The notes under the pieces: model-generated
Told to the model about the DNA's origin: nothing
Seen by the model: the letters and a program-made list of their open reading frames with translations, nothing else
The model's database searches: none
Shown here: piece by piece, positions 1 through 23,043 of the stretch
Position numbering within the stretch: position 1 is the stretch's first letter
Layout of the letters: the number at the start of each line of letters is the position of its first letter
Position numbers and translations under genes: made by a program
Assembly (NCBI GenBank): GCA_017309145.1
Contig: JAFLDU010000009.1
Span: forward strand, 1 to 41,822
DNA length: 41,822 nt
Direction of reading: 5' to 3'
From: Zoogloea sp.
GTDB lineage: Bacteria; Pseudomonadota; Gammaproteobacteria; Burkholderiales; Rhodocyclaceae

Positions 1-125
1 TGGAAGGAGGTTCCCAGGAAGGGAAAAACCGATAGACTTATCCACAGCAGCCTGAATGACGGGCGGCTATCGTCCCTGGTCAAAATTCAACCGGTACACC
101 TGGTCAGTTTTAAACCGGTACGGAC
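1..125. repeat. IS21-like element end with two direct repeats
   Basis: Two copies of a 23-bp sequence (CCTGGTCA...CCGGTAC) lie at 75-97 and 99-121, spaced 24 bp start to start and differing only in the middle (AAAATTCA versus GTTTTAAA). Tandem repeats of this TGGTCA/ACCGGTA type are typical of IS21-family ends, where the transposase binds. A reading frame ending at the TGA at 56-58 could be the tail of an IS-encoded protein, but too little remains to tell. From about 125 to 282 I see no convincing gene apart from an upstream extension of the next frame. Confidence 0.45.
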
Positions 126-282
126 AGAGCGCCCTCTTTGAGTCTTCCTTGTATGCGCGGGGAAAGCGGTGCCCTCAACTTATTCCAGGCTCGAGGGATA
201 CACGAACGACGTACGTACTGCATTTCGAACATGCGATCGGCTTGCCGCCAAGTCTGGTCGGATTTTTGCTTGGAGAGAGAGC

Positions 283-1137
283 TTGAAAACAGAAGTGCCC
301 GACGATGTATCGCCCGATCCATGCCCCGAGCTGCCGGTGGAGCGAGGGCCTCACAGCCGCGGTGTCGGGCGCTGGGTAGTGAATGAAAAGCACCGCTACT
401 TGGCGCGCTACCTCGATGCCACGCGCGAAGCTCAGAAGAAGTTCAAGCAGCGGGTGTTGATTGATCCGTTTTGCGGTCCAGGTCGCGTCCAGGTCGAGGG
501 TGAGAACTTCACACGGGACGGCGGGTCGATTGCGGCTTACCGGCAGTCCGTGCGCTCCGGCGCACCATTCACCAAGCTGCTCGTGGGCGACATTGACGCC
601 AACCGTGTCCATGCTAATGAACTGAGGCTCAGAGCCACGGGCGCAACCGTACAGAGCTTCGTGGGACCGGCCACGCAGACTGTAGGCGAGATGGCCAGTG
701 CCGTCCCTTTCGGGGCCCTAGCTCTGGCCTACATCGACCCCTACAACCTGGAGTTCCTGTCTTTCTCGATCATCGAGCGGCTGGCCAAACTGCAGTACGT
801 GGACTTTGCAGTCCACTTCAGCCTGATGGACCTAACGCGCAATATTGACATGGAACTGGACCCCAAGCGGGACCGCTTTGACCATGCGCTGCCGGGTTGG
901 CGTCTTGCCGCACCGATCGACGAGCTGTCCAAGTCGAGACTGCCCACCTGGTTCTTCGACGCATGGTGCAAGGCGGTTGGAGCCTTAGGATTCAAGATCA
1001 GCGGGCAGATGCCTCTGATCACCGACGGCAAGGGACGCTCGATTTACCGCCTAGTCTTCTTCTCGCGCCATCCCCTACCGGACCGCATCTGGAACGACAT
1101 CGCCCGCAGCGGCAATTTGGACCTGTTCTCTAACTGA
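283..1137 (+). CDS. Three-Cys-motif partner protein (TcmP-like), first copy
   Basis: This 284-residue protein resembles the TcmP family, found beside three-Cys-motif (DUF5131) proteins; no biochemical function is established. Visible: the family-type opening EKHRYLARYL (about residues 35-44), DPFCGPG at 61-67, an acidic turn GDID near 102-105, and IDPYN at 151-155. DPFCGPG and IDPYN resemble motifs I and IV of SAM-dependent DNA methyltransferases, so a Rossmann methyltransferase-like fold is inferred. The start chosen is TTG at 283, because GGAGAGAG lies 6 nt upstream; the frame stays open back to a GTG at 169, but that extension does not look like the family. It precedes the LexA-like gene by 85 bp and has no obvious promoter of its own in unique DNA. 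Confidence 0.75.
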   Translation: MKTEVPDDVSPDPCPELPVERGPHSRGVGRWVVNEKHRYLARYLDATREAQKKFKQRVLIDPFCGPGRVQVEGENFTRDGGSIAAYRQSVRSGAPFTKLLVGDIDANRVHANELRLRATGATVQSFVGPATQTVGEMASAVPFGALALAYIDPYNLEFLSFSIIERLAKLQYVDFAVHFSLMDLTRNIDMELDPKRDRFDHALPGWRLAAPIDELSKSRLPTWFFDAWCKAVGALGFKISGQMPLITDGKGRSIYRLVFFSRHPLPDRIWNDIARSGNLDLFSN

Positions 1138-1187
1138 TCACGTCTGCAACCGCCTGGACGCCACAGCGTCCGGCGTTCATCTGTCCC

Positions 1188-1216
1188 TTGATTAGTGGAC
1201 GAATGTCTACTATAAT
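1188..1216 (+). promoter_or_regulatory. Sigma-70 promoter with embedded LexA-type operator; leaderless start
   Basis: The -35 box TTGATT (1188-1193) and -10 box TATAAT (1211-1216) are separated by exactly 17 bp. An inverted repeat, TAGTGGAC at 1193-1200 and GTCTACTA at 1205-1212 with a 4-bp spacer, matches in 7 of 8 arm positions and overlaps both boxes. Repressor binding there would block RNA polymerase, so autoregulation by the downstream LexA-like protein is inferred. The ATG at 1223 is 6 nt after the -10 box, so transcription should begin at or next to the start codon; the message is predicted to be leaderless. No Shine-Dalgarno sequence precedes the ATG. Confidence 0.75.
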
Positions 1217-1222
1217 TTTGCC

Positions 1223-1861
1223 ATGGCTCGAACCAACAATGACGCCCTGCACTTGCGCCGCCTGCGCGACCTTTACGCCCGCGTGGGTTGCATGCCGTCG
1301 TACAGTGAGATGGCCAAGGCGCTGGGCTTCAAGGCCAAGAACGCGGCCTTCAAGCTGACCCAGCGCTTGATGGCCTCAGGCTATTTGGAAAAATCCGTGG
1401 GTGGGCGGCTCGTACCCGGACCCGAGTTCTTCACCGTCGATGTCAGTGATAGCGAGGTGCGGGCCGGATTTGGCTGTGAAGGCAATGCCACCAATCTTTT
1501 TCATGCGCAGGCGCTAGATCAGTTGCTGATAGCCAGGCCGTCAAAGACCATGTTCCTGAAGGTGCGTGGCGACTCGATGGTCGACGCCGGCATCCTCAGC
1601 GGTGATGTGGCCGTGGTGGAGACGAGCATGCAGGCCGTCCACGGTGATGTAGTAGTGGCCGAGATCGATGGCAGCCACACCATCAAGGAATACAGAACCG
1701 ACCGTGGCCAACCGCACCTAGCCGCACACGGAGGGGACATGCCCAGCATGAGAGCCAAAGAGACGCTGAACATCATCGGCGTTGTCAGGGGAATCATCCG
1801 GAGCTATAGGCCGTCGCAGACGGGGCAAGCTAAGGTAGCAAAGCAGGGAGCATCGCGATGA
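1223..1861 (+). CDS. LexA-family self-cleaving repressor
   Basis: This 212-residue protein has the LexA layout: a winged-helix DNA-binding part (about 1-70), then an S24 peptidase domain. The auto-cleavage pair Ala81-Gly82 (RAGF), the nucleophile Ser118 (GDSM) and the general base Lys155 (TIKEY) are all present, so RecA-stimulated self-cleavage is expected from family knowledge. Its own promoter carries a matching dyad, and its stop overlaps the next start by ATGA (1858-1861), implying translational coupling to the DUF5131 gene. It is therefore likely the local repressor of the cassette rather than the host's global LexA. The operator differs from the Escherichia coli SOS box. Confidence 0.85.
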   Translation: MARTNNDALHLRRLRDLYARVGCMPSYSEMAKALGFKAKNAAFKLTQRLMASGYLEKSVGGRLVPGPEFFTVDVSDSEVRAGFGCEGNATNLFHAQALDQLLIARPSKTMFLKVRGDSMVDAGILSGDVAVVETSMQAVHGDVVVAEIDGSHTIKEYRTDRGQPHLAAHGGDMPSMRAKETLNIIGVVRGIIRSYRPSQTGQAKVAKQGASR

Positions 1862-2616
1862 CAACAACCAGCAAGATCGAGTGGACGGAGCAGACTTGGA
1901 ACCCGACCGTTGGGTGCACCAAGATCTCTCCGGGGTGCAAGCACTGCTATGCCGAGGCGATGTCCAAGCGCCTGAACGCCATGGGCACGCCCGGCTATGA
2001 GAACGGATTTGCGTTGACCCTGCTGCCGGAGCGGCTCAATGACCCGATTAAGCGCAAGAAGCCAACGGTGTATTTCGTAAACTCGATGTCGGACCTGTTC
2101 CACGATCGGGTGCCGGATCACTACATCGACAAGGTGTTTGAGGTCATTGCGCAGACACCTCACCACACGTATCAGATCCTCACCAAACGCGCCGCGCGCA
2201 TGGCTCGGTATTTCCGGACGCGCTCGGTGCCGAACAATGCTTGGCTGGGTGTTTCCGTCGAAGACCGCGATTCCGGGGTGCCTCGCATCGACTACCTCCG
2301 TCAAGTACCGGCCACCATCCGCTTCCTATCGGTCGAGCCTCTGCTGTCCGACGTGGGTGAGCTAAACCTGAAGGACATCCACTGGGTCATCGTCGGTGGC
2401 GAGTCTGGGCCAAAGGCGCGGCCAATGAAGATGGAGTGGGTCGAGGCTGTACGCGAGCAGTGCCAGGAGCAGGACGTGGCCTTCTTCTTCAAGCAATGGG
2501 GAGGCTGGGGGGCAGATGGGAAGAAACGCGCAAAAGCGGCCAACGGGCGAGAGTTAAATGGCCGGACATGGGACGAAATGCCGGTGACGGCCACTCATCG
2601 CGTCAGTGCCCTCTGA
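1858..2616 (+). CDS. DUF5131 (phage Gp37/Gp68) three-Cys-motif protein
   Basis: This 252-residue protein matches the DUF5131/Gp37-Gp68 family. Its opening TWNPTVGCTKISPGCKHCYA holds the three cysteines (Cys20, Cys27, Cys30; CX6CX2C) that name the three-Cys-motif group, and the C-terminal half carries the family hallmarks GGESGPKARP and FFFKQWGG. The cysteine cluster suggests a 4Fe-4S centre and distant likeness to radical-SAM enzymes such as spore photoproduct lyase, but spacing differs from canonical CX3CX2C and activity is unproven. It is co-translated with the LexA-like gene (ATGA overlap) and flanked by two TcmP-like genes, the family's usual partners. LexA control hints at a DNA-damage role; this is inference. 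Confidence 0.85.
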   Translation: MTTTSKIEWTEQTWNPTVGCTKISPGCKHCYAEAMSKRLNAMGTPGYENGFALTLLPERLNDPIKRKKPTVYFVNSMSDLFHDRVPDHYIDKVFEVIAQTPHHTYQILTKRAARMARYFRTRSVPNNAWLGVSVEDRDSGVPRIDYLRQVPATIRFLSVEPLLSDVGELNLKDIHWVIVGGESGPKARPMKMEWVEAVREQCQEQDVAFFFKQWGGWGADGKKRAKAANGRELNGRTWDEMPVTATHRVSAL

Positions 2617-2749
2617 GCTTTACGACAATGTGCTTGATTATGAGAAGTTCCGCAGGCACATTGCTGCGCAGGGACCATCAGAGCGCGCTCAGCGCGCCAT
2701 TCAATGCCACATTACGACTGGATTTGGGGAGACCCACCCCCACTACTGA
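2606..2749 (+). CDS. Possible 47-residue small ORF bridging two cassette genes
   Basis: A GTG at 2606 opens a 47-codon frame that overlaps the end of the DUF5131 gene by 11 nt and runs 46 nt into the next TcmP-like gene. It fills the 87-bp gap between these genes, and its encoded middle (YDNVLDYEKFRRHIAAQG) looks like a normal soluble helical peptide. There is no strong ribosome-binding site. Alternatives are an untranslated spacer, or the relic of an N-terminal extension of the next gene displaced by a frameshift. Confidence 0.3.
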   Translation: MPSELYDNVLDYEKFRRHIAAQGPSERAQRAIQCHITTGFGETHPHY

Positions 2750-3966
2750 AACGGCACAGTGAAGTCAAACACGCGCTTCTGCGCAACTACCTGGTCGACT
2801 ACTTCCTGACGCTGGTGTCGATGCCACAGCAGGACAAAATCCAGCTGACCATCGTAGATGGCTTCTGCGGAGGGGGGCTCTACCGGAACGAGTCTGGCCA
2901 AGAGGTGCCAGGCTCCCCGCTGGTGATCCTTGAGGCAATTCGAGAAGCCGAGGTCCGGGTCAACGTGCGGCAGGAGCGGCGCAAGCCAATCAAGATCGAT
3001 GTGGAATTGATCTGCATCGATGACTGCGGCTACGCACTGGACTATCTGGGTCATGTTCTCGATGAACGGGGATATGGTGGGTCCGTTGCCATGGGTACCA
3101 TCAAGCTCGTCAAAGGGAAGTTCGTCGACCACTGCGGGGCCGCAATCCAGCGGGCACATGATCGCAGCCCGCGGTCTGGGCGCGGTTTGTTCGTGCTCGA
3201 CCAGTATGGCTACTCCGCCGTGCCGATGGACTGCCTGCGCGACATTTTCGCCAAGCTAAAGCACGCCGAGGTGATACTCACCTTCTACATTGACAGCCTG
3301 ATCAGCTACCTCAATGAGAAGAACCTCGCAGACTTCGAGTTGTCTTCGGGTATCCGCTCATCGGTGCGTGCAGCCGACTTAGACGAGATCAAGCAGTCGC
3401 CGCGATGGAGGGTGCAGTTGCAGTCTTCCCTGTACCAGAGCCTGACCAACCAGTGCTCGGCACAGTTCTACACGCCGTTCTTCATTCGACCCGAGCGCGG
3501 GCATGGTGACTTCTGGCTGCTGCACCTCTCGCAGCACTGGAAGGCGCGCGATGTAATGGCGACTACGCACTGGCAGCATCACAACCACTTTGCACACTAC
3601 GGCAAAGCGGGTTTCCACATGTTCAGCACGGGCTACATCGGCAAGATAGACGATGAGAATCGGCTACAGATGGGGTTCGATTTTAGCGAAGTGGCCGCGA
3701 CGATCAGCAAGGAAGCCATGATGGCGCAGATCCCCGTCATGCTCTTCGAAGGTGCTGAGGGCGTGACCTTCGAGCAGTTTTTTCTCAGGCTGATCAACAC
3801 TACACCAGCAACGCGTAGCATGGTAGAAGCGACGCTGCTCGAACTGCATCAGAGTGGAGAGATCATTGTTGTAGATAGCGCTGGCGACACCTCCAAGGCG
3901 CGCGTCAAGCTCAAGGCCGACCATGTGTTGCGCTTGCCCTCGCAGCGCTCCTTCAGCTTCAGTTGA
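2704..3966 (+). CDS. Three-Cys-motif partner protein (TcmP-like), second copy
   Basis: This 420-residue protein belongs to the TcmP family but is much longer than, and only distantly similar to, the copy at 283-1137. Visible: EVKHALLRNYL (about 20-30), the motif VDGFCGGG at 51-58, GSPLVILEAI following it, an acidic segment CIDDC near 103, and LDQYGY starting at about 165 where the first copy has IDPYN. These again fit a Rossmann methyltransferase-like core with a degenerate motif IV. The C-terminal third (from about residue 340) looks like an added helical or winged-helix module and may give specificity. The ATG at 2704 was chosen because homology begins immediately after it; no clear ribosome-binding site is seen. 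Confidence 0.75.
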   Translation: MPHYDWIWGDPPPLLKRHSEVKHALLRNYLVDYFLTLVSMPQQDKIQLTIVDGFCGGGLYRNESGQEVPGSPLVILEAIREAEVRVNVRQERRKPIKIDVELICIDDCGYALDYLGHVLDERGYGGSVAMGTIKLVKGKFVDHCGAAIQRAHDRSPRSGRGLFVLDQYGYSAVPMDCLRDIFAKLKHAEVILTFYIDSLISYLNEKNLADFELSSGIRSSVRAADLDEIKQSPRWRVQLQSSLYQSLTNQCSAQFYTPFFIRPERGHGDFWLLHLSQHWKARDVMATTHWQHHNHFAHYGKAGFHMFSTGYIGKIDDENRLQMGFDFSEVAATISKEAMMAQIPVMLFEGAEGVTFEQFFLRLINTTPATRSMVEATLLELHQSGEIIVVDSAGDTSKARVKLKADHVLRLPSQRSFSFS

Positions 3967-4312
3967 AACATTAGTCATCTTTCGCAGACCGGCGAGCGAG
4001 GTAAGGGCTCATACGAGAGCAGCGAGGATGGCGCTTCCTGCGGCCGATCAGACTCATCAGGAGCCAGAGCGAAGCCGGTCTCAAGCCGCGAAGGCTTAAG
4101 GCGCTTGCTTCCGGGCTGATAAAGTACTACACTAAATGAGTCTACCCGACTCTTCTGTTCGAATTGGGGCCGTGCAATGTGACTCGGTTCTGGTTTGACT
4201 TGGGTGAAGGCTATTATTGGAGACAGCACCAAACACGAGAAATCGTGGTCAAGCGTGCCGAACTGAACTAGCGTCACAGCGGATGGAGTAAATAAGGTCA
4301 GACTGAGAACTT
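3967..4312. other. Intergenic region, no recognisable gene
   Basis: This stretch between the TcmP-like gene and the terminator holds no convincing reading frame on either strand. Small inverted repeats are visible: GAGTC/GACTC around 4138-4152 and CACGA/TCGTG around 4234-4247. Because a strong + strand terminator closes it, it may be a long 3' untranslated region or encode a small RNA. Confidence 0.4.
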
Positions 4313-4347
4313 AAGCGAGAACCAAGGTCTTGGTGTCTCGCTTTTTT
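4313..4347 (+). terminator. Rho-independent terminator
   Basis: AAGCGAGA-ACCAAG (4313-4326) pairs with CTTGGT (4329-4334) and TCTCGCTT (4336-4343) with one bulged G and a 2-nt loop, a 14-bp stem. It is followed on the + strand by a run of T (4342-4347). It would end transcription coming from the TcmP/LexA/DUF5131 cassette. The opposite strand lacks a comparable T run, so it serves the converging minus-strand operon less well. Confidence 0.8.
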
Positions 4348-4349
4348 CA

Positions 4350-5183
4350 TTAGTGGTAGTCGTTTGTGAATATGTTCACATGTGATTGGTTTACAGGCTT
4401 ATGTGCATGGTGGCAGTCGGGGAAATCTCCTGTGATCCAGGTTCCACTGCCATTCTCTTTTGTCATATTGTAGTGGCGGTATTCGAAAGGGATTCTCACG
4501 CCAAGCCGATACCTGGCAGCTAATATGCACGATTTGCTATGCGGTGCACCAGTCTCGTATTTGGAATGATTTTCGTAGCCATACTCGAAGAGCTTTTTAT
4601 CGTCATCTGCGATATATTTTTTTTGCTGATCTACAACGGCCCTGCGTCTTGGCCTTCTGCGTCTCCTGAGTAGAGCGAGCTGCGCACTAACTTGGGCGAT
4701 GAGGTCGGCGCTGGCGCCCGCAGTTCTCCCCAGATAAAGCAAGTCGTTCAGGTCCTTCGCGATGAAGTTTCGCTTAGGAAGGAGGAGCACCTCAAGCATT
4801 TTCTCGTCATTCGTGAACTTATAGATATGAAGTAAATTCCTAAGGGTTCGGTTAATGGCAGCCTCGAGGGACATGCGAAGCGCTGCGTAATCTAACGTAA
4901 CTTTTCCCGCCAAAATGGCAGGCGAAACATCCTCTAGTGGGACGGCCGGATCACCTTCGATGAGCAAGGCCGCTACGTCCATTCCTTTGCTGCGTTCAAA
5001 CACGAAATTCGTGAACCCAACTTGGTTCGCGTTGGGATCGTACACTCCAATGGAAATGGTGGAACCTTTTACGTTAAAGCGCGGGTCCCCGCGAAGCTCT
5101 TTTGCGATGAGATTGGCCTGCTCCTTTTCAACAAGCGTTTTGGCTAACGAGTTTGAGGAAACGAGGCAAATGAACGCCCTCAT
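4350..5183 (-). CDS. Unknown protein, second gene of minus-strand operon
   Basis: I do not recognise this 277-residue protein. It looks soluble, without signal peptide or membrane segment. The first 170 residues are mixed helix and strand with the phrase FVFERSKGMDVAALLIEGDP. A short extremely basic stretch (RRRRRPRRR, about 171-180) separates it from a C-terminal domain containing YRLGVRIPFEYRHYN and a Cys-His cluster (CHHAH) that could bind zinc. Its start overlaps the stop of the preceding gene (5180-5183, ATGA), so the two are co-translated. The basic linker suggests nucleic-acid contact, which is inference only. Confidence 0.6.
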   Translation of the reverse strand: MRAFICLVSSNSLAKTLVEKEQANLIAKELRGDPRFNVKGSTISIGVYDPNANQVGFTNFVFERSKGMDVAALLIEGDPAVPLEDVSPAILAGKVTLDYAALRMSLEAAINRTLRNLLHIYKFTNDEKMLEVLLLPKRNFIAKDLNDLLYLGRTAGASADLIAQVSAQLALLRRRRRPRRRAVVDQQKKYIADDDKKLFEYGYENHSKYETGAPHSKSCILAARYRLGVRIPFEYRHYNMTKENGSGTWITGDFPDCHHAHKPVNQSHVNIFTNDYH

Positions 5184-5581
5184 TTCGCAAGGAGTTTGGC
5201 GATCACGTTGACTGGAATCACCACGCTGCGCTGTTCCTCTTCGCTGAGTTCCCCCAGAAGATTGAGGAACTTTAGCATGGTTTCACCCTTATGCTTTTCC
5301 TCCGGAGCAGGCGGTTTTGCGCTCGTCGGGAATTCGTAGTTTTCTCCGGCTGGAATAACGCCGACTCGTGCCTTGTGGTTCGGATCTTCGACTAATTTGT
5401 AGCCCCCTTGGTCGCACGTCCTCGATACAAAGCTCTTTACACCTTCTTCTCCCAAGACGAGGCGAAAGTCGGTTCCTGCGAAATGTCGCGGGATGTTGCT
5501 GATTAACAGAGGTTGCCTTTCGTCCCGCCAGGTCTTGCACACAATCTCGGCGATCGACGAGATTAAATTGCTAGCGTCCAT
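5180..5581 (-). CDS. Small protein with possible LOTUS/OST-HTH-like winged-helix domain
   Basis: This 133-residue protein is preceded by an ideal ribosome-binding site (AGGAGG, about 8 nt before the ATG). The pattern LLISNIPRHFAG...FRLVLGEEGVKSFVSRT...YKLVEDP...ARVGVIPAG (about 25-79) resembles the OST-HTH/LOTUS winged helix, often an RNA-binding module in bacterial nuclease and defence proteins. The similarity is from pattern alone and could be wrong. A proline-rich linker (about 86-92) leads to a short C-terminal helix (MLKFLNLLGEL). It overlaps the downstream 277-residue gene by 4 nt, so the proteins are probably made together and may act as a complex. Confidence 0.6.
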   Translation of the reverse strand: MDASNLISSIAEIVCKTWRDERQPLLISNIPRHFAGTDFRLVLGEEGVKSFVSRTCDQGGYKLVEDPNHKARVGVIPAGENYEFPTSAKPPAPEEKHKGETMLKFLNLLGELSEEEQRSVVIPVNVIAKLLAK

Positions 5582-5614
5582 TGATTATCCTCCTGATTTC
5601 TGGTTTTCAACTTC

Positions 5615-5857
5615 TTAGTCGCCTTGGCCGCTCTCCGCGCCCCGTTGATCGTACAGGCGGAGCATCACCCGTTGAGATGTGCTCCCTCCGCCAGACATTA
5701 ATACGGTTATCGTTGTCTTGCCCAATGTCTTCTCACTAACGACATGGTGCAATTGTGACTTGAGCACTCGTGCGACTCTGCGGGAGACTACCAGCGTTTT
5801 GTTCGTGCCGCCGCTATCCGGAACCGCACAACTCCCATTCTGTGATACAGCGCACAT
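5615..5857 (-). CDS. Possible 80-residue protein, first gene of the minus-strand operon
   Basis: The frame ends 33 nt before the next gene in the same direction. The peptide (GGTNKTLVVSRRVARVLKSQLHHVV...) has plausible amino-acid composition but no recognised family and no clear ribosome-binding site at its ATG. An IS5-type remnant sits just upstream, so this may be the 3' remainder of a gene truncated by that insertion. Confidence 0.3.
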   Translation of the reverse strand: MCAVSQNGSCAVPDSGGTNKTLVVSRRVARVLKSQLHHVVSEKTLGKTTITVLMSGGGSTSQRVMLRLYDQRGAESGQGD

Positions 5858-5966
5858 CGAAAACTCGTGTTTACGCGGTGCTCATGGCGCCGTTAGCAGG
5901 TTGATGCAGAGCCCAGCAAACGATCCGGCAGTCCATCTGTACCCCCTAGTCCCAGGCGCAGCACCA

Positions 5967-6165
5967 ATGCGCGGCGAGGTCGATCTCCAGTCCTCGATGT
6001 TCCACGACTTCTCGGTCGAGTCCCGGATTCCGGCTAATCATCGGCTGCGCCTGGTGAACAAACTGGCCGACTTGGCACTGTCGGCCATTTTCGCGGAACT
6101 GGATGGGCTTTAACTGACCGTCGATTCCGCCGGAGTGGCTGCTCAAGGCTCGATTGCTTATGCGG
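5967..6165 (+). pseudogene. IS5-family transposase remnant (N-terminal part, frameshifted)
   Basis: From the ATG at 5967 the frame encodes an IS5-type N-terminus (FHDFSVESRIPANHRLRLVNKLADLAL) that stops at TAA 6111-6113. The next family block, PSIPPEWLLKARLLM, continues in another frame from 6118. The catalytic DDE part is missing. This is a dead fragment left by an insertion sequence; the rest has been deleted. Confidence 0.75.
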
Positions 6166-6466
6166 AACTCATGGGAAATGGCTAGCCGACTAGGCTCAGC
6201 TACATGAGACCTTTCCCGGGGACGCTCCTGACTCCTCCCCGTTGTGATGTGGTTCTCAATATCGGAGTGCATGAAATCTCTCATTTATATGCCTTTGGTG
6301 TGATGACAAAGCGGTATACAAAAGGCATAGTTCACCGCGATTTGTAAATTCTAGTAATGCTCCTGGCGTTTTGTGAATGAGCATGCCAGCACTGCGTAGG
6401 TGGGAGGTGGGCTCGACGTCGAGCTCCACTCATTTTGGGGCGAAGGGCATATCTGTGGAGGTGGCG
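6166..6466. other. Intergenic region upstream of the RHS locus
   Basis: No gene is seen. An inverted repeat of 8 bp, ATGCCTTT near 6288-6295 and AAAGGCAT near 6321-6328, brackets about 25 bp and could be an operator or insertion-sequence end. The region carries the ribosome-binding site (GGAGGTG) for the small YD-repeat protein at its right edge. Confidence 0.3.
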
Positions 6467-6685
6467 ATGCGTTCTACTGTTGGGCAGTCGATCAAGGTGG
6501 GTTCGATCATTCTTGGTCTGGTGGCGGCGGTCTGCGCTGTTTCAGCGCATGCGGGATCTGCGAGTTACACCTACGACACGCTGGGGCGTCTGACCCAGGT
6601 TTCCTACAGCAACGGAACGGTCATCGCCTATTCCTACGATGCGGCTGGAAACCGTTCCACAGTCGTGGTTTCCGGCGCACCTTGA
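6467..6685 (+). CDS. Tiny secreted single YD-repeat (RHS) protein
   Basis: This 72-residue protein has a clear signal peptide (hydrophobic core VGSIILGLVAAVCAV, cleavage after SAHA at about residue 29) and then little more than one to two RHS/YD repeats (YTYDTLGRLTQVSYSNG, YSYDAAGNRS). The ATG at 6467 was chosen for GGAGGTG 5 nt upstream; longer upstream frames lack a signal peptide. It lies 120 bp before the large RHS gene in the same direction. It may be a decayed RHS gene end displaced by recombination, or a free-standing YD module; I cannot distinguish these. Confidence 0.6.
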   Translation: MRSTVGQSIKVGSIILGLVAAVCAVSAHAGSASYTYDTLGRLTQVSYSNGTVIAYSYDAAGNRSTVVVSGAP

Positions 6686-6805
6686 TGTCCGCGGCCTAGC
6701 CGCTTTCGAATTCTCACCCCTCAGTTTTTTTTGATCGCACTTCCGGTGCGAGGGGGCCTTTTTGCCTGGATTTTTGCGAACGATCCTGATGATCGGGAGG
6801 AATTG

Positions 6806-9800
6806 ATGACTCTTCAGTTAAAAGCGAGCCACGTGAGCGTCCTGCTGGCGATTTACGCCATGGGGGCTCACGCGGACGGCAATATCAGATTCAGTGTGGG
6901 TGCCCCTGCCGTGCAGGATGTCCAGCAACTCGCGGTTGAATCGGTGCGAGTGGGTGTTGCCAAACCGGCAATGGGGCGCGTAGAGAATGGGCCTGGTGTG
7001 AACCGGGCGATCTTTACCCCTGTTACGTCGATTGAGGCGGAGCAAGCTGTCAACGCACGCACGCTCCCGTCGGACCTGAACCGTGGTGTTGCCAAGGCGG
7101 GCAAGACTAGTGCAGCGCTCAAGAGTGCGCAGCGCGTCTCTGGAGACGCCGCTGCCATCGGACCGGGCTCAATCGCTGAGCTTGCTCGTGCGCTCAAGAA
7201 CGATCCGGACCTCATCTACGAGTACGTCCGCAACAACATCGAGTACTACCCTTCCTGGGGCGCCCAGAAGGGCGATGTTGGAACCATTCTGGACAATCAA
7301 GGGACGGCCTTTGACCAGGCGTCCTTGATGGTGTCCCTGCTTCGGCAAGCGGGTTACAGTGCGAGCTTTGTCAAAGGCCGGATCAACCTCACCGCCGCGG
7401 ACGTCAAGAACTGGTTTGGGGTCGAAACCAACAACGTATGTGCGGTCCTCAATCTGATGGCCAATGCGCAAATTCCGGTCGGGTCGGTCACAGCGACGGC
7501 TGCGGGCAGCTGCCCTGGCTCGACGGCTGCGCTGTACAGCATGAAGATCGATCATGTCTGGGTGAAGGCCACCATCGGCGGTACCAGTTATTACTTTGAT
7601 CCGAGCTTCAAGCCCCACACCTTCAAGTCTGGCATTGATTTGCCGACGACCGTTGGCTACAACGCCGCAACCTTCCTCAGTTCGGCCAAGACGGGTGCAA
7701 CAGTGGTCTCGGACTATGTCCAGAACATCAATCGCACCAACATCCGGAACAATCTCACGAGTTACGCCAACACGCTGACGACCTACTTGCGGACGAACAA
7801 GCCGGCGGGAGAACTCGTGGATGTACTGGGTGGCAAGACCATCATGCCGCATGGAGGTGCGGCACTGCGTCAAGCTACGCTGCCCTATCAGGACACATCA
7901 GTTGCTCTGACTGAATGGACCGACATCCCCGCCAACTACAAGCCGACCCTGCGGATTCAGTACAGCGGGATTGACCAGACCTACACGTCCGATGCGATTT
8001 ACGGCAAGCGCCTCACGCTGACCTACAATGGCTCGAATCAGCCGGTTCTGAATCTGGAGGGGACTCCCGTTGCAACCGGCACTGCTGTGACTCCTGGTGC
8101 CGTCGGAACGGTCAGCTTCACTGTTACGCATCCGTATGGGCAAACGTTTGCCAACCAAGTCTTTACTCAAAGCATCAAGGCGGGCGGAACATTCCTGATC
8201 GGTAATGGTTGGGGGCCTGCGGGCCGCGGCCTCATTGAGCACCATCGCTCGAGGCTCGAAGCTGCACGGGCTGCAGGTATCGCTGATGGTTCCGAAGCAG
8301 TGCTGGGATCTTCCCTCGCTGTGCTCTCGTCAAGCTGGATTGCGCAGGTCAATCAGTCGGATTACATCACTGACAGACTCGCCAAGACCAACACGCTGTT
8401 CCACCACCAGATCGGTATCGCTGGCTATAACACTTCCCCGTATGTGGATCTTCCGGGTAACGTAGTCAGCGTCGTCAGTGAGGCTGCGGATACTGCGAAG
8501 GAATCCGCTGCCTTCTTCAGTGCAGCCATGCACTCCAGTATCTTCGAGTCGACTGCGGTTCAGCAGACGTCGGGCGTGAGCGCAGTCTCGACGGTCAAGC
8601 TGATCGACATGGCATCGACCAGTGGCGACAAGATCTTCGATGCCAAGTCCTCGAACTACGCCGCTGTCGTTCAGCCGTCTCTTGTCTCGTGCTCAGCCTG
8701 GACGTCGTCGTTCCAGGCAGCAGTGAATGCGGGGCGCCGCTTGATTCTGCCTGCGCGCTGCAACCTGACCGAAGGGAGCTGGTCCGGCGCGGGTTACTTC
8801 AGTATTCTCGTTGGATCAAGCGGATCGAGTATCGGTGCGATCATTGGTGGTGGATTGGCTGGGGGGTTCGGATCAAGCTCCTTGTCCTCGTCGCTCTTTG
8901 GCAGTAATGCCCAGCTCTACAGCCTTGGCCCATTGGTCCAGAATCAAACGCTGTTCCAGACGTATGGCGATCCGATTGATGTCGTCAAGGGAAGCTATCT
9001 TTACTCGAAGAACGACCTCGGTGCAGGGACCGGTGAGTTTCCGCTGAGCCTTAGCGTCCAGCGTCAGTACAGTTCCGGGGCGCGTAACCAACCCGGACCG
9101 CTTGGTCGAGGTTGGACCCACAACTTTGCGGCCACAGCAAGTGTCGGTAGTGATGGCTTCCAGGGGCTCGGTGAAGATTCGGCTCTTGATGCTGTCGCGA
9201 CGATCATCGAGCAGATGGCTTCGCTCGATCTGATGACCGATACGACGAAGCCGCTCGACAAGATGGTGATTGCAACGTTGGCACAGCGTTGGTTCGGTGA
9301 CCAACTGATCAACAACACGGTTGTCGTCAAGCAAGGGCCCAATGGCGAGGTGTTCGTCAAGCTGCCGGATGGGAGCTACAACGCCCCTCCGGGTAAGTCC
9401 GTCAAGCTGATCAAGAATGGTGATGGCACCTACAGTTATGAGACGGTCAGCAAGGCCAAGCTGAATTTCAACAGCGCAGGCAAGATTGCGACCTTCGTGC
9501 ACCCGAGCGGTGTGCAGGCCAACTTTACGTACTCTGGCGCTGATCTGACGCAGGTGCAGAATAGCCTGGGCCGCACGCTGACCTTCACCAACAGTGCTGG
9601 TCGTGTCACCCAGGTTTCGGATGGGACGCGAACCGTCAAGTATGCCTACGACGCCTCGGGGAACCTGACGACCTTCACGGATGCAACGAACAAGAACACC
9701 ACCTTCCAGTACGACCAGCCGGGTCGGATGACGAAGCTCTTCTATCCGAGCAATCCGTCCAATGCTTTCCTGACGAACGTCTATGATTCTTTGGGTCGAG

Positions 9801-12800
9801 TCATGACCCAGACGAACGCCAATAGCCAGCTGTATAGCTACTTCTTCGCGGGCAGTCGTTCCGAAGAGGTTGCTCCGGATGGTGGGCGTTTGATCAGCTA
9901 CCTGGATCCGCTGGGGCAGGTGACGCGGTCCATCGATCCTGCTGGTCGCGTAGTGAGCAACATTTACGATGGCCAGTCGCGCCTTGTGAAGCGTGTGCTT
10001 CCGGAGGGCAACAGCGTCGAGTACGAGTACGACGATGCGACGTGCCTCTCGCAACTGCGCTGCACGCACAACGTCAAGACGGTGCGTCAGGTGGCCAAGA
10101 CGGGCAGCGGCCTGGCGAACCTGGTGAGCAGCTTCACCTACGAGAGCAGCTTCAACAAGGTGGCGTCGGCCACGGACCCGCGGGGTCAGGTGACCAACTA
10201 CACCTATACCGCCCAGGGCCTGCCGCTGACGGTGACCGCACCGGCGGACAACAGCGGTGTGCAGCCGAGCACCACGTTTGCCTACACGGCCTACACGCCG
10301 GCGGGTTTCCCGACGTTCTACCTGCAGACGAGCGCCACGTCCAAGACCACGGCCACGAACTCGGTGGTGAGCACCACCACCTACAACACCACCAACAAGT
10401 ACGTGCCGCAAACCTCAGTGAGCGACTCGGGGACGGGCAAGCTCAATCTGACCACGACCTTCACCTACGATGGTGTCGGTAATCTGACCCAGGTGGACGG
10501 CCCGCGCTCGGACGTCTACGACATCGTCAGCCTGGTGTTTGACGCAGAGCGGCGCGTCACCCAGAAGACCGATGCCTTGGGCAAAGTGAGTTACATCGCC
10601 TACGATGCCGATGGCCATCCGGTCCGCACCGCGACGCAGGTCGGTAGCCAGTGGCTCGTGAGCTGCAGCACCTACACGCTGAGCGGCAAGCTGCTCAAGA
10701 CCTGGGGTCCCGCCCAGACGGCTGCAGCAACGACCTGCCCGACGGCTGGGGCTCCTACGCCGGTAACCGACTATGCCTATGACAACAACGACCGGCTGAT
10801 TCGTGTCACCGAGAACCTGACCGCCGCTGAGGGCGGCAACCGGGTAATGGAGACGGTGTACAACCTGGACGGCAGCGTCCAGAGCACCAAGCGTGCGGTG
10901 GGGACGGCGCTGGCCCAGACCTACAGTGCCTTCACCTACACCACCAACGGCCTGCCGGCCACGGTCAAGGACGCCAAGAACAACCTGACGACCTACCAGT
11001 ACGATGGTCATGATCGCAAGATCAAGACCCTCTACCCGGACAAGACCGTCGCAGGGAGCTCCTCCGCGACCGACTACGAGCAGTTCGGTTTCGACAACAA
11101 CGGCAACCTGATCAGCCTGAGAAAGCGCAACGGGCAGAGCATCGCCTTCGCGTACGACAACCTGAACCGTCTCACCAGCCGGACCTATCCGACGAGTGCG
11201 GACAACGTCAGCTTTGCCTACGATCTGCTGGGTCGGCGCATTGGCACCGCCTATGCCGACGGTAGCCACGGCGTGGGCTACGTCTGGGACAACGCGGGTC
11301 GCCTGATCAGCACCACTGCCGGCGGCAAGACGGTGGGCTACCAGTACGACGCAGCGGGCAACCGGATCCGGACCACCTGGCCGGAAGCCACCCCGTTCTA
11401 CGTGACCGCGGCGTTTGATGCCCTCAACCGTCCGACGGCCATCCTCGAGATGGGCACCACGAGCCTGGCCAGCTACGCCTACGATGATCTGTCACGGCGC
11501 AGCACGGTCACTTTGGGGAATGGCACCACCACCACCTACGGGTACAGCACCACCCAAGGAGCCCTCTCGAGCCTTGCCCACAACCTCGCGGGTACGGCAC
11601 AGGATCAGACCTACGGCTACACCCGCAACCAGGTCCGGGACATCGTCCAGAACAGCTGGAACAATGACCTGTACCAGTGGGCCGGCGCGGTCAATGGCAC
11701 CAAGGCTTACGCCAGCAACGGTCTGAACCAATACACCACGGTGGGTGCCAGCACGCTGAGCTACGACGGCAACGGCAACCTGGCGGGTGACGGCTACTGG
11801 AGCTACGGCTTTGACCTGAACAACCGTCTGAAGACGGCGACCTCCCCGGGCTACAGCGCCACGCTGACCTATGACGCCGAAGGTCGTCTGCGTCAGACCA
11901 ACCTGGGTGGCAGCATCACCAACTTGCTCTATGACGGTGTAGCGCTGATCGGTGAGTACGACGCCAGTGGTAACCTGCTGCGCCGGTATGTGCATGGTCC
12001 TGGGATCGATGAACCGCTGGTGTGGTACGAAGGCACCGGGACGACGAGCAAGAACTGGCTCTACGCCGACCACCAGGGCAGCATCGTGGGTCAGGCCAAC
12101 AGCAGTGGCACCAGCACGGCGATCTACAGCTACGGCCCGTACGGCGAGCCGAACGTCACCACGGGTAGCCGCTTCCGCTACACCGGCCAGCAGTACCTGA
12201 GCGGGCTGGGGCTGTACTACTACAAGGCGCGGTTCTACTCCCCGATGCTCGGGCGTTTCCTCCAGACCGATCCCATCGGCTATGATGAAGATACGAACCT
12301 GTATAGCTATGTAAGTGGAAATCCAATCAATCTTACTGATCCGAGTGGTGAGTGCCCTTCTTGCATAGGTGCCATAGTCGGGGGGGGGATTGATCTTGGG
12401 ATCCAATTGATCGCAAACGGCGGAAACTTGTCGTCTGTGAGTTGGACGAGCGTTGGTGTTTCCGCTGCACTGGGTGCGGTAGGTAATATCGGTGCAGGTA
12501 AAGCAGCTAGCTCTTTCCTGAGTAATGCCAGTAACATGACAAAGGGAACTGTTGGGGAAGTGGCTGCTGCAGTAAAGGGGCTTGCCCAAGGTCGTGTCCC
12601 GGTTGCCTTGCAGCAAGAAGTGGCGTTAAGTAAGTCTTATACTCGGGTCGATCAGGTTCAAAAGAGTGTGTTTACAGGGGAGAGAGTTCTGGTTGAGGCG
12701 AAGTACGGGAAGAGTACTTTGACCACCCCTCAGCGTAGAGCTGTGCGAGAACTAGATAACTATCAGGTTGTACGTACTTCACCAGGTGAAGTAGTCAACG

Positions 12801-12904
12801 CGGCGCGAGTGGTAGGGAGCGTGGTGGGAGGGGGTGTTGGGTCAGCGGCTACGGCAGTCGCACTTAGTGGTGAGGCTGATGGTGCGAGTTCTCCGAAAAA
12901 GTAG
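6806..12904 (+). CDS. Secreted RHS-repeat polymorphic toxin with nuclease-like C-terminus
   Basis: A 2,032-residue protein, started at ATG 6806 because GGGAGG lies just upstream and a signal peptide follows (cleavage near Ala23). In order: a transglutaminase-like domain (about 125-270) in which the expected catalytic Cys position is GTAFDQ while His (HVWV) and Asp (FDPSFK) remain; a DUF6531-type RHS start (GDPIDVVKGSY, about 720); YD repeats (about 890-1790); the RHS core closure YKARFYSPMLGRFLQTDPIGY (about 1805-1825); and a variable C-terminus from about 1850. The C-terminus has RVD (Asp1949) and VEAK (Glu1964, Lys1966), matching a PD-(D/E)XK nuclease toxin. YD repeats form a shell that holds such toxins. 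GC falls sharply at the C-terminus, as when toxin tips are exchanged. Probably acts in contact-dependent competition. Confidence 0.88.
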   Translation: MTLQLKASHVSVLLAIYAMGAHADGNIRFSVGAPAVQDVQQLAVESVRVGVAKPAMGRVENGPGVNRAIFTPVTSIEAEQAVNARTLPSDLNRGVAKAGKTSAALKSAQRVSGDAAAIGPGSIAELARALKNDPDLIYEYVRNNIEYYPSWGAQKGDVGTILDNQGTAFDQASLMVSLLRQAGYSASFVKGRINLTAADVKNWFGVETNNVCAVLNLMANAQIPVGSVTATAAGSCPGSTAALYSMKIDHVWVKATIGGTSYYFDPSFKPHTFKSGIDLPTTVGYNAATFLSSAKTGATVVSDYVQNINRTNIRNNLTSYANTLTTYLRTNKPAGELVDVLGGKTIMPHGGAALRQATLPYQDTSVALTEWTDIPANYKPTLRIQYSGIDQTYTSDAIYGKRLTLTYNGSNQPVLNLEGTPVATGTAVTPGAVGTVSFTVTHPYGQTFANQVFTQSIKAGGTFLIGNGWGPAGRGLIEHHRSRLEAARAAGIADGSEAVLGSSLAVLSSSWIAQVNQSDYITDRLAKTNTLFHHQIGIAGYNTSPYVDLPGNVVSVVSEAADTAKESAAFFSAAMHSSIFESTAVQQTSGVSAVSTVKLIDMASTSGDKIFDAKSSNYAAVVQPSLVSCSAWTSSFQAAVNAGRRLILPARCNLTEGSWSGAGYFSILVGSSGSSIGAIIGGGLAGGFGSSSLSSSLFGSNAQLYSLGPLVQNQTLFQTYGDPIDVVKGSYLYSKNDLGAGTGEFPLSLSVQRQYSSGARNQPGPLGRGWTHNFAATASVGSDGFQGLGEDSALDAVATIIEQMASLDLMTDTTKPLDKMVIATLAQRWFGDQLINNTVVVKQGPNGEVFVKLPDGSYNAPPGKSVKLIKNGDGTYSYETVSKAKLNFNSAGKIATFVHPSGVQANFTYSGADLTQVQNSLGRTLTFTNSAGRVTQVSDGTRTVKYAYDASGNLTTFTDATNKNTTFQYDQPGRMTKLFYPSNPSNAFLTNVYDSLGRVMTQTNANSQLYSYFFAGSRSEEVAPDGGRLISYLDPLGQVTRSIDPAGRVVSNIYDGQSRLVKRVLPEGNSVEYEYDDATCLSQLRCTHNVKTVRQVAKTGSGLANLVSSFTYESSFNKVASATDPRGQVTNYTYTAQGLPLTVTAPADNSGVQPSTTFAYTAYTPAGFPTFYLQTSATSKTTATNSVVSTTTYNTTNKYVPQTSVSDSGTGKLNLTTTFTYDGVGNLTQVDGPRSDVYDIVSLVFDAERRVTQKTDALGKVSYIAYDADGHPVRTATQVGSQWLVSCSTYTLSGKLLKTWGPAQTAAATTCPTAGAPTPVTDYAYDNNDRLIRVTENLTAAEGGNRVMETVYNLDGSVQSTKRAVGTALAQTYSAFTYTTNGLPATVKDAKNNLTTYQYDGHDRKIKTLYPDKTVAGSSSATDYEQFGFDNNGNLISLRKRNGQSIAFAYDNLNRLTSRTYPTSADNVSFAYDLLGRRIGTAYADGSHGVGYVWDNAGRLISTTAGGKTVGYQYDAAGNRIRTTWPEATPFYVTAAFDALNRPTAILEMGTTSLASYAYDDLSRRSTVTLGNGTTTTYGYSTTQGALSSLAHNLAGTAQDQTYGYTRNQVRDIVQNSWNNDLYQWAGAVNGTKAYASNGLNQYTTVGASTLSYDGNGNLAGDGYWSYGFDLNNRLKTATSPGYSATLTYDAEGRLRQTNLGGSITNLLYDGVALIGEYDASGNLLRRYVHGPGIDEPLVWYEGTGTTSKNWLYADHQGSIVGQANSSGTSTAIYSYGPYGEPNVTTGSRFRYTGQQYLSGLGLYYYKARFYSPMLGRFLQTDPIGYDEDTNLYSYVSGNPINLTDPSGECPSCIGAIVGGGIDLGIQLIANGGNLSSVSWTSVGVSAALGAVGNIGAGKAASSFLSNASNMTKGTVGEVAAAVKGLAQGRVPVALQQEVALSKSYTRVDQVQKSVFTGERVLVEAKYGKSTLTTPQRRAVRELDNYQVVRTSPGEVVNAARVVGSVVGGGVGSAATAVALSGEADGASSPKK

Positions 12905-17775: not shown

Positions 17776-17991
17776 CATCAGTGTGAATTTGCCTTAGTCA
17801 CGGATGGCTTGCCTATCTACCTTGAGGCTAGGCGATGTTCGCGCAATGCCCCATCACCGGGGGGCAGGCGACTGAAGCGGCCTCTGCTGGCCTGGTCGTT
17901 TGGCAGCAACGCTGTGTGGTGGTAAGAGCGACTTTTCCATAGGGACTAGATGGATGCCTCGATCAGAAGTGGTATTTCCTGGAGGAACATC

Positions 17992-19007
17992 ATGAAGAGC
18001 GATTTTCAGGTCGAGGGCATCAATCAGAACGCACTTTTCACTCTCAAGGTGCATCGAGGTGAAGGCATGGCGTTGGTCGCGATGAACTGGAGGACGGGGA
18101 CGCCGCCGAGAAATTTCGTCGGCTTTGCGATTGAGTATAAAGAACCGGGAGGCGACCGTTTTTTTGCGCTCAAGAACCGGATCACGTTCCCCGCGCCGGA
18201 CGGGGAGGTCAATCCCAACCGTCTCTCGACGAGGCTCTCGCCGATTCAGAAATTCCGTTGGGTGCACTTTCCACGTAACGCCGAAATGCCCGGTGAGTTC
18301 GTTTATCGCGTGAGCCCCGTGTTCATGGACAAACAGGACGTCTTAAGTTACGGGGTGCCGCAAGAGGCTGCGATTGAATTGCGCCGTGAGACCTATCCCG
18401 GGAAGCTTAATGTCACCTTCACCAGAGGTTTTGTTTCCTCACAGGCATTCGTAGACAAGTACGTTGGCCAAGGTCAGGGCATGGAGACACTGATCCCGCC
18501 CAAGGCGTCTGAGGGCCTCGACTTCGTTCCCAGCCACCCCAAAGCGGAAGAGGCTCTGAAATGGATGGGCTTCGAGGCTCGTCATGCCATCCTTGAGGTG
18601 CTAGACGAGGCCATAAGCGATGCCTCCGCCGATGTCGATGTTGTCGCCTACGACCTGAGCGAGCACGAGGTTTACGTGCGCCTGTTGAAGTTGGCCAATC
18701 GGCTTCGCATCATCATCGACGACAGCGATGATCATGGCAAACCGACATCGGGCGAGTCCATCGCGGCTGATCGACTGCGACGGGCAGGTGCAAATGTCAA
18801 GCGCCATCACATGAGCAACTTGCAGCACAACAAGACGATTGTAGTCTCAGGCACTGTCTGCAATGCAGTTGTCTGCGGCTCGACAAACTACAGTTGGCGT
18901 GGTTTTTTTGTACAGAACAACAATGCGCTGATCGCACGTGGTGAGGGGCCCGTGAAGATCTTCCGCAAGGCTTTCGAGGACTACTTGTCTAACGACAGCA
19001 ATGTCGG
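17992..19007 (+). pseudogene. Phospholipase D-like gene, 5' half (interrupted)
   Basis: ATG 17992 follows GGAGGA by 6 nt. About 180 residues of unrecognised N-terminal domain lead to a PLD domain with the first HKD motif, His279-Asn-Lys281 (LQHNKTIVV), followed by CGSTNYSWRG. PLD enzymes need two HKD motifs; the second is at 41584-41592 in the detached 3' half. The frame is broken after codon 338 (DSNVG) by the 22-kb element and continues for only 17 foreign codons to a stop at 19057-19059. Rejoining 19007 to 41202 through one copy of TGTCGG restores the frame as SNDSNVGFGKTASASEWHDL. Native substrate unknown; a phosphodiesterase or nuclease is possible. Confidence 0.85.
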
Positions 19008-19085
19008 TGCAGATTTCGGACGTTCGTGCTCACACCGTTCAGTTGGACGTGATCAGTAGCTTAAACCGCAATTGATCACGTCCAA
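19008..19085. repeat. Left transposon end with inverted GTGATCA repeats
   Basis: After the terminal TGCAGATTTCGG, a 13-bp sequence TTGGACGTGATCA (19043-19055) recurs as its perfect inverse TGATCACGTCCAA at 19073-19085, separated by 17 bp. The core GTGATCA is shared with the other end of the element, so these are probably transposase-binding sites. A hairpin in RNA reading out of istB is an alternative role. Confidence 0.6.
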
Positions 19086-19158
19086 CGGTGGTCATGAGCG
19101 CTGGTCCGGTATCGTGACCGCGGCAACCGGCTACCTGCGCACTCTTACGGTACCGTGC

Positions 19159-19911
19159 TCACGCCTCCTCCAGTCGTTTGCGTGCATTCAGTTTGCGCAT
19201 CGACTCCCCCTTTAGCGTGAGGCAATGCGATTGATGAACAACACGATCCAGGATGGCATCGGCAAGGGTTTTATCTGGAAAAAAATCATGCCACTGAGTC
19301 GTTGGATACTGACTTGTAATTAACAATGATCCAGTTCGGACCCGATGGTCGATCACATCCAGAAGTACTTGGGATATCGGCGAGGTGAGATTACCCAAAC
19401 CAAAATCGTCAATAATGAGAAGTGATGGCCTTTCTAAACTCACTTTCAGTTTTGCTAAGGATCCGTCGAGAGATGAAGTAGATATAGCTTCATACAAATC
19501 GCTTGCACGATAGAACATCACGGGGAGTCGAAGACGGCAAGCTTGATTTCCGAATGCGCTGGCGAGCCAAGTCTTTCCTACTCCAGTTGCACCGAGAATG
19601 ATAACGTTTAGCTGCCTTTTAATCCATTCGCAGCTTGATAGATTTGCGACAATCTGCTTTTCGAGACCTCTATCTGGCCTAAATTCAATATCCTCCAGTG
19701 ATGCACGATCCGGCAATGCCGCATCCCTGATCAGACGCTTGAGTTTTCTCGACTCTCTTTCGTTCTGTTCTTGGTCGATGAGCATTGCTAAGCGCTCGTC
19801 AAATCCAAATTCATGAAGCTTGGGCTGTAGGAGCTGATTCTCGTAAGCCTCCGCCATGGTTGTCAGCCGTAACGCCCGAAGTTGAGTCAAGGTACGGTTT
19901 GCGATACTCAT
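19159..19911 (-). CDS. istB: IS21-family helper ATPase IstB
   Basis: A 250-residue AAA+ ATPase of normal IstB length. Walker A is GATGVGKTW (about 106-114) and Walker B is LLIIDDFG (about 162-169), with a conserved QYP near 197. IstB loads onto target DNA and activates the IstA transposase. It overlaps istA by 4 nt (ATGA at 19908-19911), the standard translational coupling. Its stop lies 151 bp inside the left end of the element. No disabling change is seen. Confidence 0.92.
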   Translation of the reverse strand: MSIANRTLTQLRALRLTTMAEAYENQLLQPKLHEFGFDERLAMLIDQEQNERESRKLKRLIRDAALPDRASLEDIEFRPDRGLEKQIVANLSSCEWIKRQLNVIILGATGVGKTWLASAFGNQACRLRLPVMFYRASDLYEAISTSSLDGSLAKLKVSLERPSLLIIDDFGLGNLTSPISQVLLDVIDHRVRTGSLLITSQYPTTQWHDFFPDKTLADAILDRVVHQSHCLTLKGESMRKLNARKRLEEA

Positions 19912-21458: not shown

Positions 21459-21477
21459 GGCGGGGTTCCTCACAGAA

Positions 21478-21619
21478 CGCCCGACAGGCCTGGTCGGGCG
21501 AGGACAAAGCCATCCCGCACGTACACCTGCTCGTCAAAAGCATATCTGACCTTGACGAGGAGGCGTGCGCAGCCGATACTATCCTCACAGTCGGCGAGAC
21601 TTGTAAAAGTAGTATGTAG
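21478..21619 (+). other. Possible 3' remnant of a + strand gene; hairpin
   Basis: A frame ending at 21619 (VHLLVKSISDLDEEACAADTILTVGETC) stops 5 nt before a strong terminator, as a real gene would. Its 5' side runs into the istA gene in antisense, so it could be a gene truncated when istA arrived. A perfect 8-bp hairpin, CGCCCGAC/GTCGGGCG, is at 21478-21500 and might mark the boundary. No family recognised. Confidence 0.25.
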
Positions 21620-21624
21620 CGCGC

Positions 21625-21653
21625 AACGCCCGAGGCAGCCTCCTCGGGCGTTT
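21625..21653 (+). terminator. Rho-independent terminator
   Basis: AACGCCCGAGG (21625-21635) pairs perfectly with CCTCGGGCGTT (21642-21652) around a CAGCCT loop, an 11-bp GC-rich stem followed by TTTGCGTTT. It points on the + strand, where no intact gene precedes it, supporting a truncated upstream gene. Confidence 0.7.
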
Positions 21654-21690
21654 GCGTTTCAGGATGGGGATTCGGTGGTGATCGGATTGT

Positions 21691-21978: not shown

Positions 21979-22081
21979 GACCAAGTGTTTACGGATACGT
22001 GATGTCACGCAGTGTTCATCTCTGTCGCATTTTTCGCCACCCGCTCCGATAATTTGATTTTTAGTACTCCAGACAGATCAT

Positions 22082-23037: not shown

Positions 23038-23043
23038 CCGCCC

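Follow-up and report, generated by a model that had tools for sequence, protein, structure and literature searches.

A LexA2-type repressor joined to DUF5131 and two unlike TcmP proteins: a recurrent cassette probably under DNA-damage control

We analysed a stretch of 41,822 nucleotides (nt) from Zoogloea sp. (assembly GCA_017309145.1, contig JAFLDU010000009.1, positions 1–41,822 of the forward strand; hereafter, the window), which starts with four genes on one strand: a short TcmP-like gene, a LexA-type repressor gene, a DUF5131 gene and a longer TcmP-like gene. A first-pass annotation had described them as a LexA-regulated cassette, and this four-gene layout was confirmed by a check of the open reading frames (ORFs) and by family profile matches for all four products. 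TcmP-short (283–1137, plus strand) has 284 residues from a TTG start and matches TIGR04474 (E = 8e-37). The LexA2-type repressor (1223–1861, plus), with helix-turn-helix (HTH) and S24 domains, is predicted to be self-cleaving and matches PF00717 (E = 4.5e-20). DUF5131 (1858–2616, plus; 252 residues) contains the cysteine motif CX6CX2C and matches PF07505 (E = 2e-112), and TcmP-long (2704–3966, plus; 420 residues) matches TIGR04474 (E = 4e-61) and ends in a GMT-type winged helix-turn-helix (wHTH) domain (PF22560, E = 4e-9). The proposed coupling of DUF5131 to lexA was likewise seen, as an ATGA at 1858–1861 in which the lexA stop and the DUF5131 start overlap. A sigma-70-type promoter, TTGATT-17-TATAAT (1188–1216, plus), precedes the lexA–DUF5131–TcmP-long unit; since TcmP-short ends at 1137, upstream of this promoter, it is part of the locus and not of the unit. 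The terminator said to close the cassette was not recovered: none was reported directly behind it, and the nearest site in a plus-strand scan was a weak one at 4138–4152, in a region with 10 such sites compared to 3.0 in shuffled sequence. An interrupted hairpin followed by a T run was seen by eye at about 4318–4346. An Rfam search of positions 1–8000 gave no match.

The repressor gave a sub-threshold match to the LexA HTH (PF01726, 18 bits against a cut-off of 23.7) and scored 82.8 bits against the LexA equivalog model TIGR00498, below its cut-off of 110.95, and was therefore assigned to the LexA2 type rather than to canonical LexA. In an alignment to the autocleavage positions that we take to be those of Escherichia coli LexA, the A–G cleavage bond, the Ser and the Lys are all kept. 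With the weakly matched HTH, the A–G site, the Ser–Lys dyad and an operator of its own, the protein has the features of a LexA/S24 autoproteolytic repressor, in keeping with the first-pass annotation as far as such features can predict it. The operator is the palindrome TTAGTGGACGAATGTCTACTAT (1192–1213), which spans the spacer between the −35 and −10 elements, 9 nt before the lexA ATG, and conforms to the clade scheme TTAGTGGAC-N4-GTCCACTAA. It is kept in seven of seven members of the clade (window included), 8–10 nt before the ATG and beside a kept TTGATT, as is TTGATTAG of the promoter. The operator scored 31.3 bits and the next best site in the window 5.0, with a matrix built from the same sites as it scores. 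The promoter is the sole such site in 1–4400, but a mean of 1.3 arises in shuffled sequence, so that alone it is not beyond chance and its weight comes from its conservation.

A LexA protein scan over genome contigs gave five loci. The four-gene order, whose restriction to this contig the first-pass annotation would have counted against its proposal, recurs in four of them (Rhodocyclus gracilis, Achromobacter MYb9, Comamonadaceae ALPHA2B and Ralstonia TCR112), with 64–93% protein identity to the window. In the Ralstonia locus (L041 in our numbering of loci) lexA is split in two frames at 8001–8656, while the other three genes are open. The fifth locus, from a Comamonas metagenome-assembled genome (L040), consists of LexA and a DUF5131 gene truncated where the contig stops, and the 8 kb upstream gave no TcmP. 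The TTG start of TcmP-short is aligned in L037 and L038. A Comamonas plasmid carries LexA–DUF5131–TcmP without the upstream TcmP, and its TcmP is 35% identical to TcmP-long. DNA similarity to the four relatives runs from about window position 213–332 to 3954–3964, and the flanking genes vary: L041 has TnsB- and TniQ-like genes, L039 a Septu pair and a retron of type PRTase_III-A, and L037 a type IIG enzyme. This limit to the cassette span suggests that the four genes are transferred together. Among the candidates listed from 398 other genomes of the order, for some of which only the best seven were scored, no LexA exceeded 42% identity to the window clade, and the exact cassette is therefore rare. 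The window's own genome holds two further LexA-like genes (G000, contigs C255 and C372), from duplication or contamination (estimated at 5.87%).

We then considered the DUF5131 family at large, and read 98 loci (L071–L096 and L174–L245) from genomes sampled at the class, order and phylum level, some of them from one genome; L246–L253 were left out of the counts, and fragments and low-scoring DUF5131 matches were not all included. An S24 gene, taken by its longest ORF, was present within 1 kb in eight of these loci: six encode a LexA2-type protein (L084, L177, L178, L181, L187 and L188), L202 a LexA with a canonical-looking HTH and L179 a UmuD-type protein. The LexA match proper in L187 begins 1.8 kb from DUF5131, and one more S24 gene, UmuD-like, was found at a distance of 3.6 kb (L186). 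In the order-level sample, a LexA2-type place lay within 2 kb of 6 of 46 DUF5131 places (48 rows merged), where 0.017 would be expected (P about 3e-14, assuming 100 LexA2-type places, 99 by recount, and a mean genome of 3.7 Mb); one of the six DUF5131 places has internal stop codons. The six DUF5131-linked LexA2 loci named above belong to a second LexA2 clade; CGAAC-N4-GTTCG precedes lexA2 in all six and, in five, is flanked on its other side by a TcmP or DUF5131 gene read in the opposite direction. In our reading, the two operator types appear to share the scheme GNAC-N4-GTNC. On a tree of 66 DUF5131 proteins (at least 200 residues, E ≤ 1e-95; L202 and others fall outside, and the UmuD-linked L179 counts as unlinked), the LexA2 label needs four changes, all forced by supported branches, compared to 12.1 in shuffles. 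The LexA tree, in which the first of the two lexA pieces stands for L041, is less clear, with four changes of which one is forced. In genome G717 (contig C7, 305254–307727), a DUF5131 gene with internal stop codons lies 1.2 kb from a LexA2-type gene. Similar unnamed neighbours of LexA2-type genes (MKxLYSYTYCVLRYVHD...) occur in L187 (7035–7883) and L100 (9995–10858), so LexA2 may head other small modules as well.

Other connections to the SOS response were also apparent. In L202 (4018–12187), lexA, a small ORF, TcmP, DUF5131, imuA, imuB and dnaE2 follow one another on one strand, and on a Burkholderia glumae plasmid TcmP, DUF5131 and a second TcmP adjoin imuA–imuB–dnaE2. (A lyase identity was rejected for the radical-SAM gene beside the module on this plasmid, which matched B12-type and other radical-SAM models and no lyase.) Exact CTGT-N8-ACAG and GTTC-N7-GTTC boxes and the LexA2 palindromes were sought upstream of the modules. 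One or more were present in 12 of the 98, and in 13 of 163 search windows compared to 6 of 434 control windows (p = 1.7e-4), the palindrome of L084 lying outside the span used in this count; with the LexA2 palindromes removed, host-type boxes alone were present in 9 of 163 and 5 of 434 windows, respectively (p = 0.004). GAAC-N7-GAAC, found in nine loci, was left out of the count, five of the nine sites being inside the DUF5131 coding start. In Mycobacterium tuberculosis, co-transcription of Rv2735c with recA and recX, at least in part, is described in PMC3062782, and a gene cluster changed by mitomycin C includes Rv2734, Rv2735c, recX and recA, according to PMC5057432. The TcmP-domain gene BCG_2748c is numbered next to recX (BCG_2749c) in PMC7387457, and we infer from this position that it corresponds to Rv2735c. 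For alpha- and beta-proteobacteria and Bacteroidetes, SOS regulation of the spore photoproduct lyase SplB has been either predicted or reported (PMC3323433, PMC8565304, PMC3765255), a background into which another SOS-controlled family of this fold would fit. The operators, the recurrent LexA link, the imuABC and recA contexts and the published mitomycin C cluster with its presumed homologue thus give good support, at the level of sequence, to the damage switch in what the first-pass annotation had called a damage- or phage-induced system. The Zoogloea cassette is probably under its own DNA-damage-sensing repressor, and its control is very likely damage-inducible.

DUF5131 belongs to PF07505 by a wide margin (375 bits against a gathering cut-off of 28.9), and its cysteines C20, C27 and C30 are invariant in 52 aligned sequences. 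Searches of PDB sequence profiles with it gave no solved relative. The AlphaFold2 model, with a predicted local distance difference test (pLDDT) score of 93.8, was compared to the PDB with Foldseek. All five matches at E ≤ 0.001 were spore photoproduct lyase, as was the sixth-ranked match, with E-values of 4.4e-4 to 6.7e-4, a probability of 1.00 and template modelling (TM) scores of 0.50–0.52 by query length. DUF5131 is therefore a predicted radical-SAM-like enzyme with the spore photoproduct lyase fold. A search with TIGR03886 gave one sub-threshold match in 120 genomes.

Both TcmP proteins pass the 53-bit cut-off of TIGR04474 (TcmP-short, 127.6 bits; TcmP-long, 207.1 bits). TcmP-short has the motifs DPFCGPGR and IDPYN and gave no wHTH match, while TcmP-long has DGFCGGG and LDQYG. 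The top five profile matches of TcmP-long were to RlmJ (E = 0.0017–0.009), aligned over DgFaGpGRY, GSPLIA and DP-Y. A Foldseek search with its model (pLDDT 80.8) placed Trm1 first and RlmJ second among 87 matches at E ≤ 0.001, those listed being methyltransferases of many kinds. Membership of the RlmJ family, which is marked by a sequence match and DPPY, does not follow, the profile match being remote and the motif DPYN or DQYG; TcmP appears to be a class I methyltransferase homologue, remotely RlmJ-like. Motif IV contains DQ in 35 of 41 long TcmPs (at least 395 residues), and DP in 76, DQ in three and a gap in five of 84 short ones. Each clear two-TcmP locus has one DQ and one DP protein (the window, its four relatives, L033, L034, L035, L190, L192, L210 and L214; L191, with two fragments, was left out). 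We considered the possibility that DQYG marks a dead subunit, but did not adopt it, because single-TcmP loci also carry DQYG. TcmP-long, as a single query, found no relative in viral contigs.

DUF5131 is fairly common: with the window's own genome counted each time, it was found in 31 of 369, 43 of 399 and 41 of 398 sampled genomes, and also in 404 plasmid and 161 phage records. On three Pseudomonas plasmids (L166–L168, about 4800–9100), DUF5131–TcmP immediately follows an integrase gene beside which a DNA-binding gene points the other way, an arrangement that we take to resemble the tnpS/tnpT pair of Tn4651-type transposons. In a temperate Gordonia phage (L172, 4992–6861), DUF5131 and a TcmP-like gene are convergent, near integrases and an immunity repressor. 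Within the window, two overlapping minus-strand genes directly behind the cassette (4350–5183 and 5180–5581) have no Pfam, NCBIfam or PADLOC family at E 0.1. Further along are a 2057-residue ORF (6731–12904), which lies in accessory DNA and in which YD/RHS-like repeats were seen by eye, and, at 17950–32362, accessory, metal-resistance-like genes for a PLD-like protein, IS21 istA/istB, an RND efflux pair, EamA and a chromate transporter.

From the gene order, the ATGA overlap, the operator and the autocleavage residues, we infer that the following might occur. In undamaged cells, the LexA-like protein on the operator between −35 and −10 would block its own operon; RecA filaments on damaged DNA would then cause the repressor to cut itself at the A–G bond, and lexA–DUF5131–TcmP-long would be transcribed, with TcmP-short supplied from a promoter of its own. 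The predicted folds suggest a possible chemistry, in which Cys20, Cys27 and Cys30 of DUF5131 would be the ligands of a [4Fe-4S] cluster, and the enzyme would split S-adenosylmethionine (SAM) and take a damaged or modified base as its substrate, in the way that the thymine dimer serves spore photoproduct lyase. The TcmPs, RlmJ-like and with a wHTH in the long one, may bind the nucleic acid and either methylate it or position it within the radical enzyme. We give an even chance to the cassette being a horizontally transferred module that is induced in the SOS response and repairs or modifies nucleic acid, and consider it a toss-up whether damaged or modified DNA is its target rather than something else. 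A bolder and tentative proposal is that DUF5131–TcmP represents a second, non-spore and widespread class of lyase-fold, direct-reversal DNA repair enzymes, placed under SOS control by different regulators in several lineages and disseminated by plasmids, transposons and phages. In its two-TcmP version, the long DQYG/wHTH subunit and the short DPYN subunit would pair as unequal methyltransferases and present the lesion to the radical enzyme.

Several observations weigh against an SOS-induced repair module. Most of the sampled DUF5131 family members have no LexA link, and 86 of the 98 modules have none of the tested LexA boxes. Each box motif taken alone was weak (p = 0.02–0.07), and 4 of the 12 box-positive loci are LexA2 loci that had already been counted. 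A further LexA–DUF5131 pair, L097, lacks the second clade's operator scheme. No TcmP was found in 38 of the 98 loci, of which only 5 are close to an end, and the 38 include three of the six LexA2-linked loci (L178, L181 and L187). The fold match to the lyase is remote (E = 4e-4, TM = 0.52, 14% identity), and no spore photoproduct lyase match was found by sequence in NCBIfam or the PDB profiles. Furthermore, the CX6CX2C spacing differs from the canonical radical SAM motif CX3CX2C, so that DUF5131 is said here to work like a radical SAM protein and is not filed as a member by motif.

These points have to be considered together with the other explanations for the cassette. Anti-phage defence, the main rival, in which the SOS-type switch would sense phage-caused damage or prophage induction and the effector would modify or destroy phage nucleic acid or stop the cell, is possible though doubtful. 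It draws on the listing of TcmP/DUF5131 as the PADLOC phage-defence candidates PDC-M30/M41, and on the report, in PMC10855318, that PDC-M30 is predicted in 32 of 100 Pseudomonas aeruginosa strains and that 68.8% of these 32 are phage-resistant. Several copies are flanked by defence genes: Septu PtuA/PtuB and the retron in L039, the type IIG restriction enzyme in L037, an OLD-like gene near L177, and DarG adjoining L084. The temperate phage Jablanski carries the pair, and the Sinorhizobium meliloti TcmP gene SMa2243 is listed, in PMC12445080, right after the phage-defence gene hna (SMa2245) with a like change in expression. The imuABC, lexA and recA contexts, however, are those of repair, and among ten neighbours scanned (picked by eye, with no control set) two had no match, one was weak and two were transposition proteins. 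Sensing of phage-made damage would unite repair and defence.

That DUF5131 and TcmP instead act on rRNA or tRNA damaged in stress seems improbable to us. Among solved structures, TcmP comes nearest to RNA methyltransferases (RlmJ by profile, E = 0.0017–0.009; Trm1 and RlmJ by Foldseek), but this link is weak because the listed Foldseek matches are of so many methyltransferase kinds, and the wHTH of TcmP-long, the lyase fold of its partner and the SOS control all point to DNA. Nor do we put much faith in simple hitchhiking, in which a LexA of the sort that mobile elements often carry would regulate only itself and sit here by accident of position. It would account for the relatives on plasmids or beside transposition genes and for the many family members without an adjacent LexA; it is difficult to reconcile with the four forced link changes on the DUF5131 tree, the shared divergent operators, the ATGA coupling and the several regulatory routes (LexA2 types, host LexA boxes, imuABC and the recA operon). 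Read as an SOS-induced repair or modification module, an orphan defence candidate becomes, through its repeated SOS connection and its predicted repair-lyase fold, a hypothesis that can be tested directly by asking which lesion or modified base it acts on. If true, this would add to the SOS response a radical-SAM route of repair or modification carried by mobile elements.

The first-pass annotation had called the cassette an undescribed DNA-damage or defence system. In PADLOC, DUF5131 matches PDC-M30B (E = 2.7e-116) and PDC-M41B (E = 1e-113), TcmP-long matches PDC-M30A (E = 7e-20) and TcmP-short, weakly, PDC-M41A (E = 0.005), and with M30A and M30B together the cassette falls within PDC-M30. 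Since the pair is already in PADLOC, "undescribed" can hold for the LexA wiring and the mechanism only. In this respect the claim may hold: among the matches listed from open-access full texts, we found no function assigned to TcmP/DUF5131, no LexA-linked version, and neither the lyase fold of DUF5131 nor the RlmJ likeness of TcmP. The TcmP/DUF5131 pair is known, and the regulated cassette appears to be a new version of it. PDC-M30/M41 are candidates from genome context rather than experiment, according to PMC10855318; only their A and B models were matched, whereas the cassette combines DUF5131 with two different TcmPs and a LexA-type switch of its own.

With SplB, the cassette shares the predicted fold of DUF5131 and the SOS control that is predicted for SplB in PMC3323433. 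DUF5131 differs from it in having no sequence-profile match, a CX6CX2C motif, a shorter chain and a TcmP partner in 60 of the 98 sampled loci. A match of DUF5131 to TIGR04471 (radical SAM mobile pair protein A) covers residues 13–213 (E = 1.3e-26), but its 93.4 bits are far below the equivalog cut-off of 355 bits, so that the protein is not placed in that family. TcmP resembles RlmJ, the 23S rRNA A2030 N6-methyltransferase, in motif I (DTHAGAGRY and DgFaGpGRY, respectively), in GSPLIA and in DP-Y (E = 0.0017). The likeness is remote, however, and TcmP-long has DQYG in place of DPxY, adds the wHTH and comes with a partner protein. The LexA2-type family that the repressor resembles is mostly stand-alone in the loci seen, with some members heading imuA–imuB–dnaE2 rows (L104, L036). 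The arrangement is thus like that of the lexA2–imuA–imuB–dnaE2 cassette, where a LexA2-type repressor heads a small operon; the operator sequence differs and the cargo is DUF5131/TcmP rather than polymerases, while L202 joins both cargoes in one row.

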